Of a stretch of 27,689 bases of DNA, positions 10,344 to 16,628 are shown piece by piece. The stretch's first letter is position 1, and the number at the start of each line of letters is the position of its first letter. A program made the translations under genes and the position numbers. Under the pieces are notes generated by a model that saw nothing but the letters and a program-made list of their open reading frames with translations, made no database searches and had not been told where the DNA came from. The DNA comes from a virus, in the IMG/VR virus record IMGVR_UViG_3300030102_005877, positions 1 through 27,689 of that record. One strand, 5' to 3'.

Positions 10344-10738
10344 TGACTCAGACAGTTGTACACGTACCCGCCAGCGAGGGCGGTGGTGGCGGCGGCAAGA
10401 TGGGCGAAGGCGACTTCTTCAGTGCTACTGCCGGGGGCAATATCACCATCGACTTATCTAAGGGCTATTATCAGCGCATCACTTTAAACGCGGCTATCAC
10501 CGATGTGGCGTTCTCTGCGGTGCCTGCCAGTGAAGGACGCTCGGTGGTTGTGGATTTTATTCAACCCAGTTCTGGCACCACCTACGGCGCATCATTCCCT
10601 GGCATCAAGTTCGACTCTGGTATTGCACCGACACTGAGCACCGGCAATAGTGACATAGACCGCATTGCTTTTGACCTCATTAACGATGGCTCGACCACTA
10701 CCGAATATGGCCACGTGCTCGGCTTGGATATGCAGTAA
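10343..10738 (+). CDS. Small beta-rich, Gly-loop protein, probable tail/fibre accessory
   Basis: A 131-residue protein with AAGGAGG six bases before ATG 10343, overlapping the upstream stop as TGATG. The N-terminus has a six-glycine run (residues 14-19) and an acidic turn. The remainder is beta-rich, with an ITIDLSKGYYQRITLNAAI pattern often seen in phage receptor-binding or fibre-tip proteins. There is no signal peptide, membrane helix or catalytic motif. Its stop overlaps the start of the large LamG protein as TAATG, so the two are probably translationally coupled. A direct role in the adsorption apparatus is inferred. Confidence 0.6.
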   Translation: MTQTVVHVPASEGGGGGGKMGEGDFFSATAGGNITIDLSKGYYQRITLNAAITDVAFSAVPASEGRSVVVDFIQPSSGTTYGASFPGIKFDSGIAPTLSTGNSDIDRIAFDLINDGSTTTEYGHVLGLDMQ

Positions 10739-13700
10739 TGGCACCACCGAAGGACATAGCCAGGAGCTACCCCAAGCGCGGAATTACGGCTGACGTAGGT
10801 TTTCGGAGTGAGCCGAAGTTTTGTGGTGATGGGTCAATCGAGTTAAATGGGTCTAACCAATACCTAAACGCGGAGCTTAGTTCGGCGCTCGGTAATTCAT
10901 TTACAATCATGGCATGGGTAAAGCGTTTGGCAGGGTCAGCTTTCCAATACATATTTGACACGGGTAACTTCACGGTCTCTGGCGGGGAGATTTCACTTGC
11001 AATTAACTTCAGCAATAACCTTTACTTTTATGATGGATCGGGATCCGTAACTACGACGACGTTTAACGTAGACCTTGCCACATGGCATCACGTAGCAATA
11101 GCAGTTGCTCCCGGTTCTGGGAATCTTAAGATTTACGCAGATGGGATAGACGTAACTCCAACACATAGCGCCAACATAAACATTACTGATACCACTTTTG
11201 AGATAGGTCGTCACATAGGTGCTAACTTCTACCTGGATGGCCGGATTAGTGATGTAAGAATCTATGATGAGACATTGACACAAGATCAGATACGAGAGCT
11301 TCGGAATAATCCAGGTCAAACGATCCCGACAGGTCTCACGAGCGCGGACCTCATTCATCGATATTTACTTGAGACCGACACAAACGACAGCGGCGCAACC
11401 GGCAACAACCTGACAGCCAATAACTCACCATCTTTTAGTGTAGATCGTCCCCAACTACCGCGCGGTCTTGATTTGACCGGTGGCTTCAAGTCTCCGTCAC
11501 TAACCTTTAACGGTCAGTGTGCAAACTTCAACGGAACCAATCAAGGTGCGCACGTCTCGAATAGCTATAACTGCGCAGCAAGCGGGGCAAAGACTACGAT
11601 CGCGGCATGGTTCAATAGTAGAGATCTCACTTTATCAAGTAATCAAACAATCGCTTGTATCGCGGTCAGTAATACAAATTCTCGCATTGGTATTTATACG
11701 ACTGCGACAGGTGAAGTCGGTGCAAGCGCTGGCCTTAGCTCTGGCTTCGTCAAAGTATCGACGGGCAATGTACTAAAAGAAAACCGCTGGTATTTTGTGG
11801 CGGCGACATTGGACGCCGACAGCGCAGCCATTAAGATTTATGTCGATGGCTTAGAATTTAATCAAAGCCCTACTTCAGGATTAGGCGGTACCGATAACAC
11901 TTTCGAGGTTGGGTTTCGAGAAAACAGTGGGTCAGGGCTACAGCACTTTGACGGACGCCTTGCAAATGTAATGGTGATTGAAGACGTGTTGACTCAATCT
12001 GAAGTTGTCGAGTTGATGCGTGATACGACTTACGCGAAAGCTCAGACATTCGGTACCGTGAATCGCTTCTACACGTTTGCGTCTAATCTCAACGACTCAA
12101 CGGGAAGCCACAACCTAACAGGTGTTAACTCTCCGACGTTCACAACCATCCCAGCGAATCCCACGCGGTTGATTGACCCTAGCAGAGGCGCGGCTCAGGC
12201 TAGATGCTTCACGGGCAGGGCGGTTGATTTCGATGGGTCGGCTGACTACTTAGATATTGGCCAAAAGCACTTCGGCACGGGCGACTTTTCAATTTCGCTT
12301 TGGTTTTACGACCGGCAATCAAGCGGCGGGAACAGAAGCCTTTTCTCTAAAGGGACCTTTAACACTGTGGGCGGGTTGCTTCTTTATAATGTTTATGGAG
12401 CGACGGCGGCAGATCAATACATTTTGTTTCGAAATGACGCCCAAGCAACAGGCAGCTTTGATGATCGAATCACTATTACTTCCAAAGCTGAACCAAATGT
12501 ATGGCACCACATCGCGGTAACTAGAACCGGTGGGACTGTTAAAGGCTATTTTGATGGCAAGCTGACGGCCAGTAGCACAAACTTTAATCCCGCGTGGGAT
12601 ATTAACGTCGCGCAAAACTCTTTCATTGGAGCCCGTGACCCTTCCAGTCCTGGCTCGTTTTGGGATGGCTTTATCTCATCGGTGAAGGTTTGGGACACTG
12701 TGTTGACTGATGCTCAAGTCGCGGAGCAGTTTCATAATCCCGAGCAAGTATTGCCTACTGGAACCAGTGCCAGCAACCTAGACCGGTACTACCCACTAAG
12801 CGATTACAATGATGCAGGCGGCACTGGCGGGCGACACTTCCAAGATATAGGCGCAGATGGCGAACCAGCGGAAGATAAAGGCTCGGCCTCTATGGAGTTC
12901 GCTCAACCTGTACCGTGTCCGCAATTGGGATTACAGCAGAGTGCGACTCGCTTAAGGTTTCCTACAACCACTAACAACTACGTTCAAGCGTCAATCAGCG
13001 CGGTCGGCGCAAACTTCACTTTGTCTTATTGGGTTCAGCCGTTCTCGTTGCATACTGGTCTTTTGTATCAAAGCACATCAGGATTGCAGCAGGTTTACAT
13101 ACATAGTTCAGGGAATGTTCAGGTCTACCAAATTAACGGAGTTTACGCAGGTTCAGAGACATACACAGCGGGCGACTGGCTTCATGTTGTGGTGACTACC
13201 GATGGGCTATATGTGAATGGTGCTTTTGATGAAGCCCAAACGGGCGCTAGTGGGTTGAATCAAAGTGGCATAAGAATAGGTGCGGATGCAACTTCACCGA
13301 ATACAAACTTTGGATTCAACGGTATCATAGCAAGCGTGGGCGTTTGGAATGAGGCTATTACTGCGTCAGAGGTTTCTGCCCTCTATGCGCAGGGTCAAGG
13401 CCACGACCCAAGGATCGACACAGGAAACTACACGTCCAGCGCCAACCTTATAAACCTTTGGCTTATGGATGATCTGACGACAGTTGTTGACCGCGCCGGT
13501 TCTTCAAACGCGACGGTGACTGGTTCAGCTTTTACAGCCGCATCCTTCCCAGAAAACGCCAGCGGCTCGACGCTTGTTGGTGATTTCTCGCTTAAGCGTA
13601 AGGGTGTTAGTGTTTTGAATCCGACGGGAACACCAACTAGCTCTTTGGTTCAATCTGCCATCATTTCAAATGATGGATCTCTAAGCCCTGACCCGTCAAA

Positions 13701-14202
13701 GGGTGGTTACTCTTTCTCGGCATTTATTCGGTTCGAGCAAGCGTCAGGGTCATCGCCTTGGTTCCCGATGATGTTTTCCGGTACGAATTATTTGACCGGT
13801 TCCAAAAGGTTTATCTTGAACTTTGGGGACAACTCCGTTGCCGCAAACGCTCCAGGAATAACGATAAGCGACGGGTCAACTCCAAGAGACTATAATTGGC
13901 CGTCGGTCTTGTCTAACCCGGAAGAGTGGCATCAGTTGGCGTTTACAATTGATTACTCCACTTCTCCAAATACGACATTTAGACTCTATCTGGATGGAGC
14001 GCTGGTGAGCACTCAGGCGACTCACGCACATTCTGCGTTTGATCCAGGCGATATTATCGTTGGTTCATACACTTCGGCTAATGGCAACTTTCCCGGCGCG
14101 ATTGCTTGTTTCAAAATGTATCAGGCTAAACTCAGCGACAACGAAATAAAGCAAATCTACAACTCCGATTTACGTCTCATAAAAGGATTAGCAAATGAGT
14201 AG
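10738..14202 (+). CDS. Tail adhesin with five tandem LamG-like (concanavalin A-type) domains
   Basis: A 1154-residue protein. Five repeats can be followed by the recurring order of a first strand like SIELNGSNQYL or AVDFDGSADYLDIG, a core SFTIMAWVKR / SISLWFYD, then WHHVAIAV / WYFVAATL / WHHIAVTR / WLHVVVTT / WHQLAFTI, then IYADGI / IYVDGL / GYFDGK / LYVNGA / LYLDGA, then an FEIG/FIGA/IRIG strand and an ISDVRIYDETLT-type closing helix. Approximate bounds are residues 33-190, 260-430, 494-665, 737-885 and 945-1150. This is the Laminin_G_3 / LamG-like jelly-roll fold, which in phages usually binds cell-surface glycans. There is no enzyme motif. It is probably the main receptor-binding protein, and it overlaps the next gene by 8 bp. 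Confidence 0.85.
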   Translation: MAPPKDIARSYPKRGITADVGFRSEPKFCGDGSIELNGSNQYLNAELSSALGNSFTIMAWVKRLAGSAFQYIFDTGNFTVSGGEISLAINFSNNLYFYDGSGSVTTTTFNVDLATWHHVAIAVAPGSGNLKIYADGIDVTPTHSANINITDTTFEIGRHIGANFYLDGRISDVRIYDETLTQDQIRELRNNPGQTIPTGLTSADLIHRYLLETDTNDSGATGNNLTANNSPSFSVDRPQLPRGLDLTGGFKSPSLTFNGQCANFNGTNQGAHVSNSYNCAASGAKTTIAAWFNSRDLTLSSNQTIACIAVSNTNSRIGIYTTATGEVGASAGLSSGFVKVSTGNVLKENRWYFVAATLDADSAAIKIYVDGLEFNQSPTSGLGGTDNTFEVGFRENSGSGLQHFDGRLANVMVIEDVLTQSEVVELMRDTTYAKAQTFGTVNRFYTFASNLNDSTGSHNLTGVNSPTFTTIPANPTRLIDPSRGAAQARCFTGRAVDFDGSADYLDIGQKHFGTGDFSISLWFYDRQSSGGNRSLFSKGTFNTVGGLLLYNVYGATAADQYILFRNDAQATGSFDDRITITSKAEPNVWHHIAVTRTGGTVKGYFDGKLTASSTNFNPAWDINVAQNSFIGARDPSSPGSFWDGFISSVKVWDTVLTDAQVAEQFHNPEQVLPTGTSASNLDRYYPLSDYNDAGGTGGRHFQDIGADGEPAEDKGSASMEFAQPVPCPQLGLQQSATRLRFPTTTNNYVQASISAVGANFTLSYWVQPFSLHTGLLYQSTSGLQQVYIHSSGNVQVYQINGVYAGSETYTAGDWLHVVVTTDGLYVNGAFDEAQTGASGLNQSGIRIGADATSPNTNFGFNGIIASVGVWNEAITASEVSALYAQGQGHDPRIDTGNYTSSANLINLWLMDDLTTVVDRAGSSNATVTGSAFTAASFPENASGSTLVGDFSLKRKGVSVLNPTGTPTSSLVQSAIISNDGSLSPDPSKGGYSFSAFIRFEQASGSSPWFPMMFSGTNYLTGSKRFILNFGDNSVAANAPGITISDGSTPRDYNWPSVLSNPEEWHQLAFTIDYSTSPNTTFRLYLDGALVSTQATHAHSAFDPGDIIVGSYTSANGNFPGAIACFKMYQAKLSDNEIKQIYNSDLRLIKGLANE

Positions 14203-14534: not shown

Positions 14535-14843
14535 ATGGAGGAGACGCTTGCCAGTGGAGGTATCACCGGCTTGCTGACTATGGCCATGTTGTTGGCAATG
14601 CGCGTGTACGAGGCGAGAAAAGCGAAAGCCAATGGGGGCTCGACGTATGACAACATCAAGCAGAATCAAGGAACTTTGCGGATTCTTGAGGAGCGCAATC
14701 AAAGAGTCGAGCAAGATGTAGCAGAGCTTCGAGAGAAGCAGAAAACAATGCACCGGGATTTGTGTGAGTTTCGAGAAGAGTTTCGCGAGTTCCTAGCATT
14801 TCAAAGGGGGATTGAACATGCCAAACGTCAAGGGAAAGACTAA
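14535..14843 (+). CDS. Single-TM coiled-coil protein of the lysis cassette (spanin- or holin-like)
   Basis: A 102-residue protein. ATG 14535 is chosen because GGAG at 14525-14528 is 6 nt upstream and the start lies 1 nt after the previous stop; ATGs at 14520 and 14523 are in frame but lie in the upstream gene. Residues 8-24 (GGITGLLTMAMLLAMRV) form a short membrane helix, followed by basic residues and a long charged coiled coil at about 45-95 (LEERNQRVEQDVAELREKQK). One N-terminal TM plus coiled coil resembles inner-membrane spanins (Rz-like) and some accessory holins. The C-terminus overlaps the start of the two-TM holin-like gene. No signal-cleavage site is evident. Which role it plays is inferred from topology and context. 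Confidence 0.6.
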   Translation: MEETLASGGITGLLTMAMLLAMRVYEARKAKANGGSTYDNIKQNQGTLRILEERNQRVEQDVAELREKQKTMHRDLCEFREEFREFLAFQRGIEHAKRQGKD

Positions 14844-15087
14844 CGGCCTCAAGTCATCGGAGTTTCTAGTAACCGTCTGCGGGCTAATCCTGGGACTCGG
14901 AATGGCAATCGCAGAGCAAGTGCTAGGTGATGGTCATGCTGGTTGGCTCAGTGCGGTAGGTGGCGTCATCGCTGCGATCTGCGGCGGTAGCTACAACCTG
15001 TCTCGCGCTAGAGTAAAGGCGGCTCTAGCGGGCGCAGAAGCGGTTGCTGAAGCGGGAAAGTCGCAAGCCAGCTCACCCAAGGACTGA
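14818..15087 (+). CDS. Holin-like two-TM membrane protein (zero-frame product)
   Basis: An 89-residue protein. ATG 14818 is chosen because a G run at 14806-14810 is 7 nt upstream; a TTG at 14812 is less likely. Residues 1-15 are basic and polar. Residues 16-35 and 41-60 are hydrophobic helices separated by an acidic turn (LGDGHAG), and a basic then Ala-rich helix follows (SRARVKAALAGAEAVAEA). Small two-TM proteins next to an endolysin gene are typical phage holins that permeabilise the inner membrane. The stop at 15085 gives this short form. The gene also carries a slippery heptamer at 15054-15060 that would extend it in the -1 frame (see the frameshift product). Confidence 0.7.
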   Translation: MPNVKGKTNGLKSSEFLVTVCGLILGLGMAIAEQVLGDGHAGWLSAVGGVIAAICGGSYNLSRARVKAALAGAEAVAEAGKSQASSPKD

Positions 15088-15281
15088 CCAGTGCGTTGGC
15101 GGCGGTTCCAAAAGACAATGGCCTGGACCTCGGTATTGGCATCATTAAGCGCCATGGTAAGCTTCGTGGCAGTTTGTCTGCTGCTGCGAAAATCAATGAG
15201 ACCGTTTCACTCGTCGCAAACGCACACGCAGCGTCGACCCAGGACTGGGCCGCTATGGCCGGACTGAAAGTGAGGTGGTGA
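14818..15281 (+). CDS. Predicted -1 frameshift product: holin-like domain fused to YadA-type OM anchor
   Basis: If ribosomes slip back one base on G GGA AAG (15054-15060), reading continues from GTC at 15060 to the TGA at 15279, giving 81 + 73 = 154 residues. The -1 part starts with a short helix (QLTQGLTSALAAVP). Four alternating strands follow, about residues 103-111, 115-126, 128-140 and 143-154, and the protein ends G149-L-K-V152-R-W154, which fits the outer-membrane beta-signal G-x-x-hydrophobic-x-aromatic. Helix plus four strands ending in Trp is the layout of the YadA trimeric autotransporter anchor. The -1 frame has no good independent start: only a TTG at 15096, without a well-placed Shine-Dalgarno, which would lose the helix. 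The TGA at 15048 lies just upstream of the heptamer. Frameshifting and membrane insertion are predictions. Confidence 0.6.
15054..15100 (+). promoter_or_regulatory. Candidate -1 ribosomal frameshift signal: slippery heptamer plus stem
   Basis: GGGAAAG at 15054-15060 is read in the holin frame as G GGA AAG, the X XXY YYZ pattern; the same heptamer is known from the lambda G/T tail-chaperone frameshift. A 6-nt spacer follows, then GCCAGC (15067-15072), which can pair with GTTGGC (15095-15100) through five Watson-Crick pairs and one G-U. After a one-base mismatch the stem continues as CAC (15074-15076) with GTG (15091-15093). Spacing and geometry are typical for a stimulatory hairpin. Confidence 0.6.
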
Positions 15282-15282
15282 G

Positions 15283-15570
15283 ATGGCAAAAGGCAAAGGC
15301 ATGAAGGGCCACACGATTAAGGGTGGCCATAAGCGTCCTACGAAGAAGGGCGCAGGCATGACCAAGAAGGGGATTGCCAAGTACCGTAGGGACAACCCTG
15401 GCTCTAAGCTCAAGGGTGCGGTGACTGGTAAAGTCAAGAAAGGCAGCAAGGCCGCCAAGCGACGCAAGTCTTATTGCGCTCGCAGTGCTGGCCAGATGAA
15501 AAAATTCCCCAAGGCTGCGAAGAATCCCAATTCGAGACTACGCCAGGCGCGTAAGCGGTGGAAGTGCTGA
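15283..15570 (+). CDS. Small, very basic Cys-containing conserved phage protein
   Basis: A 95-residue protein, roughly one third Lys/Arg, with ATG 15283 just after the -1 frame stop and a GAGGTGGTGAG ribosome-binding region. The middle and end (residues 26-95) carry a pattern I recognise from small proteins of marine phages: GMTKKGIAKYRRDNPGSKL, then GSKAAKRRKSYCARS, then SRLRQARKRWKC. I believe Pfam lists it as DUF6321, but I cannot confirm the number. Two conserved cysteines (C65, C95) could form a disulphide or metal site. Nucleic-acid binding is likely from charge alone. It is the first of four very basic small genes around the endolysin. Confidence 0.7.
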   Translation: MAKGKGMKGHTIKGGHKRPTKKGAGMTKKGIAKYRRDNPGSKLKGAVTGKVKKGSKAAKRRKSYCARSAGQMKKFPKAAKNPNSRLRQARKRWKC

Positions 15571-16031
15571 TGAAGCTGACGCCACACTTCTCCTGGAATG
15601 AGATGACGCGAACTTCGTACAAACGATTCTTTGATGAGAATCGGAGAGAGGCGCGCAACTATGCGTGCGCTATTTATTTGACCGCCAACATGATGGAGCG
15701 AGTTCGGTCTCTCATTAGGTCCCCAATCAAGGTAACCAGTGGGTTTAGGTGTGAGGACTTGAACTCGGCCATTGGAGGTTCAAAGTTATCCCAGCACCGC
15801 CGAGGCGAGGCTTGCGATTTCCAGCCCTACAAATGCACGATCGAAGAAGCCTTTGAGAAGATTGCCATCGAGGTGCGTGAGAAGCGTTTAAACGTCGGTC
15901 AACTGCTCCTGGAGCGAGGGTGGATTCATATCAGCCTTGGGCATCCGACCGCTCGCCCGGAGAATCGACAGAATGAAATTGGTCACCAAGAACCTGATGG
16001 CCGCGTGATTATTGATGAAAGGATCAGGTGA
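15570..16031 (+). CDS. Endolysin, zinc D-Ala-D-Ala carboxypeptidase-like (Peptidase M15A)
   Basis: A 153-residue protein. ATG 15570 overlaps the previous stop (TGATG) and has GGA 7 nt upstream; an in-frame GTG at 15558 is the alternative. The N-terminus HFSWNEMTRTSY resembles the start of the Peptidase_M15_3 family. The signature SGFRCEDLNSAIGGSKLSQH leads to H76-RRGEAC-D83, and WIHISL supplies H120, giving the zinc triad His-Asp-His; E115 is a plausible catalytic acid. The enzyme would cleave peptide bonds in peptidoglycan stem peptides. There is no signal peptide or TM, so it needs the holin to reach its substrate. Length fits single-domain M15 endolysins. Confidence 0.85.
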   Translation: MKLTPHFSWNEMTRTSYKRFFDENRREARNYACAIYLTANMMERVRSLIRSPIKVTSGFRCEDLNSAIGGSKLSQHRRGEACDFQPYKCTIEEAFEKIAIEVREKRLNVGQLLLERGWIHISLGHPTARPENRQNEIGHQEPDGRVIIDERIR

Positions 16032-16219
16032 TGGCAACGAAGAATGTACCGACAGACAAAGCAAAGTGGTCCAGAGCCAAAGCTAAAGCTCGTGCTAAAT
16101 TTGATGTTTATCCATCCGCATACGCCAACGCATACGCCGTTAAGGAGTACAAGAAGATGGGCGGTTCGTGGCGCACCCAGAAGACCAGCACCAAGCGTAA
16201 GCGCAAGGCCAGTAAGTGA
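16031..16219 (+). CDS. Small basic conserved phage protein (FDVYPSAYAN motif)
   Basis: A 62-residue protein. ATG 16031 overlaps the endolysin stop and has GAAAGGA at 16017-16023, 7 nt upstream. Residues 5-45 read VPTDKAKWSRAKAKARAKF, then DVYPSAYANAYAVKEYKKMG, a pattern found in small proteins of cyanophages, other marine phages and some large viruses. The C-terminus is a basic tail (TKRKRKASK). Its function is unknown. It is tightly coupled to its neighbours by start/stop overlaps. Confidence 0.7.
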   Translation: MATKNVPTDKAKWSRAKAKARAKFDVYPSAYANAYAVKEYKKMGGSWRTQKTSTKRKRKASK

Positions 16220-16482
16220 TGGCTAAGACGGGCCTGAAGAAGTGGTTTGCCGAAGAGTGGGTAGACATCAGCCGCAAGAAGAAAGACGGCTCACACCCTT
16301 CCTGTGGCCGCAAGAAGGCCGGTGGTAAGGGCTATCCGAAGTGCGTGCCGAAAGCCAAAGCCAAGCGCATGACCAAGGCGCAGAAAGCATCCGCAGTAAA
16401 GCGTAAGCGTAAGGCTGGTCTCCCCAGTGGTGGCAAGCCTCGCAATGTTTCAACATTCAAGAAAACAAGGAAGAAAAAGTGA
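16219..16482 (+). CDS. Small basic two-Cys conserved phage protein (KKWFAEEWVD motif)
   Basis: An 87-residue protein with ATG 16219 overlapping the previous TGA; an in-frame GTG at 16216 is also possible. It starts KTGLKKWFAEEWVDISRKKK, then has C29-GRKKA and YPK-C42-VPKAKAKRMT, and ends in a Lys/Arg-rich tail. This KWF...WVD...CGRK...YPKCVP layout recurs in small proteins of marine phages and some nucleocytoplasmic viruses. The Cys pair may be structural. The biochemical role is unknown; nucleic-acid contact is suggested only by charge. Confidence 0.7.
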   Translation: MAKTGLKKWFAEEWVDISRKKKDGSHPSCGRKKAGGKGYPKCVPKAKAKRMTKAQKASAVKRKRKAGLPSGGKPRNVSTFKKTRKKK

Positions 16483-16628
16483 AGAAAAAAATGCCACCGC
16501 AGTTACTTAAGAAGTTTAAGGCAGCAGCGTCAAAGAAGAAGACCGCCAAGAATGGCGCATCTTCTGTCTCTAACAAAGATGTCGCTATGAAGAAGAAGTC
16601 TCGGAAGAAGGTGGCTCGGAAGAAATAG
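16479..16628 (+). CDS. Tiny very basic protein, GTG start
   Basis: A 49-residue Lys-rich reading frame (MKKKMPPQLLKKFKAAASKK at the start, KKKSRKKVARKK at the end). GTG 16479 overlaps the previous stop as GTGA and has AAGGA at 16467-16471, 7 nt upstream, so it is preferred over the ATG at 16491, which would be 19 nt away. It is the last plus-strand gene before the strand switch, and its 3' end overlaps the convergent minus-strand gene by 44 bp. Size and composition match the three basic genes upstream. Function is unknown. Confidence 0.55.
   Translation: MKKKMPPQLLKKFKAAASKKKTAKNGASSVSNKDVAMKKKSRKKVARKK

Follow-up and report, generated by a model that had tools for sequence, protein, structure and literature searches.

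A conserved -1 frameshift signal in a predicted lysis locus of uncultured bacteria-infecting viruses, with a YadA-anchor-like extension and a nested gene

In tailed phages, nearly all known programmed frameshifting concerns tail-assembly chaperones. The slippery motif of the lambda G/GT tail chaperones is G GGA AAG. The Escherichia coli dnaX frameshift occurs at A AAA AAG, with an upstream Shine-Dalgarno-like element and a downstream stem. In phage Colossus, GGGAAAC is the slippery sequence (PMC3556154), and nearly all of the annotated programmed ribosomal frameshift (PRF) genes in SEA-PHAGES genomes encode tail chaperones (PMC10885494). Among lysis proteins, two-form holins that arise through dual starts are known, possibly including SPP1 gp26/gp26* (PMC6316719). 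Spanins occur in three gene layouts in addition to the u-spanins, whose ectodomain is predicted to be beta-rich; 91 of 677 genomes surveyed had no recognisable spanin (PMC6139136). The literature searched, with partial coverage that included few subscription journals, described neither a holin gene with a frameshift nor the fusion of a holin to an outer-membrane anchor.

The window, that is, the whole stretch of DNA analysed here, is the 27,689 bp IMG/VR uncultivated virus record IMGVR_UViG_3300030102_005877. Its layout is of the tailed-phage type, with a LamG-repeat tail-fibre-like protein (10738-14202) followed by the lysis cassette and then by replication genes on the minus strand. Within the cassette, the original prediction had placed a -1 frameshift signal in a holin-like gene (here A), opening an extension (B). 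The frameshift account is supported by the comparisons described below; what it had missed was a coding gene in the 0 frame (C) and the autotransporter-anchor-like nature of B. The features of the locus are as follows.

14535-14843, plus strand: upstream gene encoding an N-terminal transmembrane (TM) segment and a coiled-coil-like helix, i-spanin- or XhlA-like by shape only
14803-14810, plus strand: Shine-Dalgarno sequence of A, AAAGGGGG, read from the sequence 7 nt before the ATG at 14818
14818-15087, plus strand: A, an 89-aa holin-like protein with two predicted TM helices (ATG 14818, TGA 15085-15087)
15054-15060, plus strand: slippery heptamer G GGA AAG, in phase with A; an equivalent X XXA AAG is present in 47/47 sequences
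15060-15281, plus strand: B, the -1 frame extension, 73 codons and a stop, predicted as a helix and a four-stranded meander ending AGLKVRW; YadA-anchor-like
15067-15100, plus strand: stem-loop (15067-15072/15095-15100 and 15074-15076/15091-15093), 6 nt 3' of the heptamer and holding the GTG of C
15079-15083, plus strand: Shine-Dalgarno-like AAGGA for C, read from the sequence
15091-15267, plus strand: C, a putative protein of 58 aa with a single TM segment, encoded in the 0 frame within B; its GTG lies at +6 from the first base of the A stop codon
15283-15570, plus strand: DUF6321 small basic protein (PF19846, E=4.8e-11), outside the frameshift
15558-16031, plus strand: endolysin (Peptidase M15_3; phrog_894 endolysin, E=1.5e-24; PF08291, E=4.6e-16), the marker of the lysis cassette

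The organization of the cassette is similar elsewhere. In most homologous loci, a gene with an N-terminal TM segment and a coiled-coil-like region precedes A, as in the window, where its match to phrog_7686 (Rz-like spanin) reaches E=0.13 only. In several clades, A is followed by an Amidase_2 or Peptidase M15_3 enzyme gene, which in some cases starts on the last codons of B. A crude regular expression found no o-spanin lipobox candidate in the window's cassette or in 12 loci. Immediately 5' of the cassette, the 1154-aa protein at 10738-14202 contains five LamG-like (Laminin_G_3) stretches and is probably a receptor-binding fibre. Very small Lys/Arg-rich proteins, one of them the DUF6321 protein, are clustered 3' of the lysis genes (15283-15570 and 16028-16628). 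On the minus strand, the gene at 16585-17304 matches PHROG 3704 'ferredoxin' (E 8.4e-60) and is a possible auxiliary metabolic gene.

Holins are small, have one to three TM segments and are encoded next to an endolysin. A has two predicted TM helices, and an endolysin gene lies downstream of it in several clades. The description of A as holin-like stands on these two properties; homology to known holins is marginal at best, with matches to phrog_1299 and phrog_1129 ('holin') at E 0.014 and 0.084, each from two of 39 members. From the two TM segments and the position before the endolysin, we infer that A is a holin. Both the N- and the C-terminal tails carry a net positive charge and the loop is net negative, a distribution that predicts an N-in/C-in topology. 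A structure model of A reached a pLDDT of only 62.

Homologues were collected by scanning viral contigs with A and B, both as single sequences and as alignments, to give a set of 47 distinct sequences consisting of the window and 46 IMG/VR homologues. In the window, GGGAAAG at 15054-15060 is read in the frame of A as GCG GGA AAG TCG, and the -1 frame extends from just after the TGA at 15048-15050 to the TGA at 15279-15281. The coordinates originally given for the heptamer and the open frame are all correct, and the lengths are confirmed from the sequence: a short form of 89 aa, an extension of 73 codons and a predicted fusion of 81 + 73 = 154 aa. Alignment of homologues, proposed as a check of conservation, recovered the heptamer and an open B frame in 47/47. 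Near the end of A, every sequence has an in-phase X XXA AAG, which is G GGA AAG in 24, A AAA AAG in 22 and C CCA AAG in one (homologue L036, at a different place). Throughout the set, a slippery site of the general form X XXY YYZ is present where the two frames overlap, in phase with the zero frame. Six distances separate the start of the heptamer from the stop codon of A (10, 16, 19, 22, 28 and 31 nt), with B open in every case; the signal has thus been kept while its position has shifted. Even where A is only 36% identical to that of the window (L067 and L069-L075), A AAA AAG and B are still present. Two remote A-like outgroups, L124 and L138, have neither an in-phase heptamer nor B.

In-phase X XXA AAG occurs twice among the 5274 plus-strand codons of the window, both times inside A. 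The second occurrence, GGGAAAG at 14832-14838 near the start of A, serves as an internal control: it is absent from most homologues and can therefore be regarded as a chance occurrence. Of 33 A genes, counting that of the window, four have any in-phase heptamer within their first 15 codons. A GAGG or GGAGG element lies 5' of the heptamer in many clades, and is only suggestive since the same bases encode conserved residues of A. Transcriptional slippage is unlikely at G GGA AAG and possible in the clades with A AAA AAG.

The identical two-frame layout in 47/47 sequences excludes a sequencing error or an in-frame fusion as its source. Homologues in which an indel fuses the two frames, or in which B has a start of its own, had been named as grounds for rejecting a frameshift, and none was found among the 47 sequences.

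The A and B parts seem to have been exchanged as modules across the slippery site. A of the L069 type (MKPGIKTSEM...) and A of the L068 type differ, yet the B domains are very similar (L067, L068, L069 and L074). The 68,173 bp contig IMGVR_UViG_3300030099_006113 carries two differing A/B/C loci (L052 and L054), approximately 34 kb apart, with B proteins 91% and 75% identical to that of L031; this contig perhaps represents two phage genomes joined during assembly. Beyond these viral contigs, tblastn of a collection of isolated phages with four queries (A or B) gave no match, and a scan of bacterial genomes with the A protein of clade C found no relative. HTVC023P-like and C75C1 phages have only the DUF6321 neighbour in common with the window, and no A- or B-like domain in the stretches examined.

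The evidence that B is a coding frame comes from the codon-position pattern of substitutions in the stretch where C has already ended. In this B-only stretch, differences at B codon positions 1/2/3 number 257/116/783 in 1716 comparisons within clade B and 16/4/107 in 324 comparisons within clade D, the pattern of purifying selection on the shifted frame that is characteristic of PRF. This bears on the explanation that C is the sole real downstream gene, the -1 frame being free of stops either fortuitously or as a shadow of C. In favour of that view, the start of C at +6 is conserved, many clades have a ribosome-binding site for C, and C contains a TM segment; given C, an open -1 frame by itself is not unlikely in most sequences. 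However, B runs approximately 20 codons beyond the stop codon of C in several clades, with a strong third-position bias in its frame, and its C-terminal motif DW.A.AGLK.RW is kept across clades, including those where C is not. Together with the presence of the heptamer in 47/47, this makes the explanation hardly credible, and B as a shadow of C is ruled out by the substitutions in the B-only stretch.

Alternatively, B could be translated from its own start, either the TTG at 15096 or a non-standard codon, with no frameshift. The original prediction had seen no convincing start for B, and this is borne out. In the window the B frame offers only the TTG at 15096 and CTG. The TTG is present in the window and its close relatives, but it is replaced by CTG in L004, L005, L012 and L025, and no ATG, GTG or TTG lies within reach of B in these four or in L037, L038, L051 and L052. 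Initiation at the TTG would also remove the conserved helix of B and leave the heptamer unexplained. An independent start is very improbable and is rejected, no start codon of B being common to the homologues. Entry into B by a -1 shift from A is the reading followed here.

At a PRF site, a downstream RNA structure is expected at 5-9 nt. The stem predicted 6 nt after the heptamer, at 15067-15100, is supported in clade A (the clade of the window, 13 sequences), where 15067-15076/15091-15100 is paired in 100% of cells; two pairs have both sides changed and one mixes G-U, G-C and A-U. The argument for the stem rests on this covariation, since the free energy of the window's stem relative to shuffled sequences is ordinary (z 0.14). 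The hairpin of L069 (z -2.2) and that of L074 (z -2.4) are strong, and most other sequences have ordinary folding energies. No consensus stem serving all clades was found.

Nested within B is the third putative product, C. An ATG or GTG lies exactly at +6 from the first base of the stop codon of A in 45/47 sequences, and in the remaining two an ATG lies at +15. The B residue at this point varies (D, S, N, G or R), and the third base, which the start codon requires to be T, is T in 45/45. C is 58 aa long in the window, 42 aa in clade B and 36-64 aa elsewhere, with one hydrophobic segment. When codons were shuffled synonymously with the B protein fixed, the TM segment in the 0 frame was weaker than that observed (p<0.05) in 44/47 sequences (37/39 + 7/8), which are not independent tests because the sequences are related. 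In the overlap, differences within clade B at B positions 1/2/3 number 769/489/568 of 2838; relative to the B-only part, changes are fewer at B position 3 (C position 2) and more frequent at B position 1 (the C wobble position). Taken together, the +6 start, the TM excess and the codon-position shift indicate that C is a coding gene and that it shares DNA with B. The frameshift stem of the window's clade includes the GTG of C.

It is clearly unlikely, in view of these results, that C is not expressed and that its hydrophobic segment is a by-product of codon use in B. In favour of such an explanation are the divergence of C in L004 and L005 (only 35-36% identical to C of the window), the early stop in C of L125 and the weak Shine-Dalgarno sequences of several members; elsewhere, in many clades, a ribosome-binding site precedes C. 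Set against it are the +6 start in 45/47 sequences despite the varying B residue, the TM excess over synonymous shuffles in 44/47 and the shift in codon-position pattern within the overlap.

With respect to B, an AlphaFold2 monomer model was built from a 39-row alignment (pLDDT 75 only). It has a helix at residues 2-16 and strands at 24-33, 36-46, 51-61 and 64-73, i.e. the single helix and four-stranded meander, with a terminal aromatic residue, characteristic of YadA_anchor domains, which as trimers form a 12-stranded barrel in the outer membrane. A Foldseek search of the PDB with this model returned YadA, Hia and AtaA membrane anchors as the top five matches (probability 1.00 each), and among viral structures the top matches were phage proteins bearing a YadA anchor. 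VIA-align superposed B on AtaA with Z 5.3 and rmsd 2.5 over 55 residues, without ranking the anchors above unrelated folds.

Profile comparison agrees in part. In a Pfam search of 39 B members, YadA_anchor (PF03895) was listed first (E 0.012, 3/39), followed by Phage_OMP (E 0.05, three members), both below the cut-off. Eight remoter B sequences, treated as a separate set, had no YadA_anchor or Phage_OMP match, and a search of 14 whole records found neither family over the cut-off. Against a reference of eight phage YadA anchors collected in this analysis, hhalign gave E 4.1e-6 over 69 columns for B sequences of the L122 type, 8.8e-5 over 62 columns for those of the window's clade and 5e-4 for all B sequences. 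The B sequences of clade B or of clade C alone gave no significant alignment, and A, used as a control, gave nothing (probability 0.1). For the L122-type and window's-clade sets, comparison of single anchors with shuffled copies was in agreement. B has no significant PHROG match and no signal peptide of its own. The model and the profiles support, short of proof, a YadA-anchor-like B, which by the Pfam gathering cut-off is not a member of YadA_anchor. In phiEco32, the YadA-anchor adhesin gp119 (EU330206.1, 9719-10516, minus strand) is encoded in a minus-strand region distant from the lysis genes of that phage.

Sequence comparison thus shows a conserved putative frameshift site, coding patterns in B and C and, in clade A, a covarying stem. 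That these four elements and the YadA-anchor-like fold of B all hold together seems to us probable. They would form a three-product lysis locus around a conserved -1 programmed frameshift in uncultured bacteria-infecting viruses. A (89 aa) would be a two-TM holin-like protein of the inner membrane. A fraction of ribosomes would slip by -1 at G GGA AAG, helped in the clade of the window by the stem 6 nt downstream, to produce a minority A-B protein of 154 aa, in which A without its last 8 residues is joined to the 73-aa autotransporter-anchor-like domain. Ribosomes that stop at the stop codon of A, or that start independently, could initiate at the GTG or ATG 6 nt further on and produce C. A-B might then link the inner membrane, or a holin patch, to the outer membrane and act in outer-membrane disruption, and the frameshift rate would fix the ratio of A-B to A, that is, of membrane linker to hole-former.

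A role of A-B as a spanin-like linker between the two membranes, made by frameshifting from DNA that also encodes a nested third lysis protein, is put forward tentatively, as an interpretation that may well be wrong. The predicted N-in/C-in topology of A places B in the cytoplasm and counts against a linker. A-B may insert differently from A, B may not enter the periplasm until the holin opens, or A-B may be an antiholin in which B has another task. A fuller version of the last proposal is that the frameshift is real and that A-B is an antiholin-like regulator of lysis timing, in which a cytoplasmic extension alters the oligomerization of A and the beta domain is a trimerization or retention module, not an outer-membrane anchor. 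This would fit the predicted topology, and holins regulated by a longer co-expressed form are known, as in dual-start lambda S and possibly SPP1 gp26/gp26* (PMC6316719). As a cytoplasmic tail, however, a conserved meander that resembles a membrane anchor and ends in an aromatic residue, as outer-membrane proteins do, would be odd, and we consider such a regulator rather unlikely.

A conserved frameshift in a lysis cassette, combined with an anchor-like domain and a nested gene, would be a new way of setting the ratio of lysis proteins. It could also help to explain outer-membrane opening by phages in which no spanin is recognisable. Of the three products of the locus, two would escape standard gene calling.

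Several known systems invite comparison. As in lambda G/GT, slippage by -1 at G GGA AAG, close to where a small gene ends, would yield a minority protein with a C-terminal extension. Tail-assembly chaperones, however, are encoded 5' of the tape-measure gene and have chaperone homology, whereas A lies 3' of a LamG-repeat fibre-like gene and 5' of the endolysin gene, neither A nor B matches any chaperone family, and the extension contains a third gene. The dnaX frameshift is similar in that 22/47 sequences have A AAA AAG and many have GAGG or GGAGG 5' of the heptamer; it differs in that the shift truncates the dnaX product but opens an extension of A, and the genes are unrelated. MS2 gene L is likewise an overlapping lysis gene with translation coupled to events in another gene (PMC10885494), but belongs to an RNA phage and involves no -1 fusion product of the A-B kind.

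The dual-start holins (lambda S105/S107 and SPP1 gp26/gp26*) also provide two forms of one holin-like protein in a set ratio, whereas the second form here would arise by a C-terminal frameshift and gain a whole beta domain. With the YadA_anchor domain (PF03895), which occurs in trimeric autotransporters and in phage adhesins (phiEco32 gp119, for example), B shares the predicted helix and four-strand meander, the C-terminal aromatic residue and profile similarity over most of the domain. Unlike these anchors, B falls below the Pfam cut-off, has no passenger or signal peptide and is joined to inner-membrane TM helices. Unimolecular spanins have an N-terminal outer-membrane lipoprotein signal and a C-terminal TM segment, whereas A-B has no lipobox, would carry N-terminal TM helices followed by a C-terminal anchor-like domain, and would be made by frameshifting. 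It would nevertheless resemble spanins (T1 gp11 u-spanin; lambda Rz/Rz1) as a lysis-cassette product and possible connector of the inner and outer membranes, encoded, as are Rz and Rz1, by a locus with nested genes.
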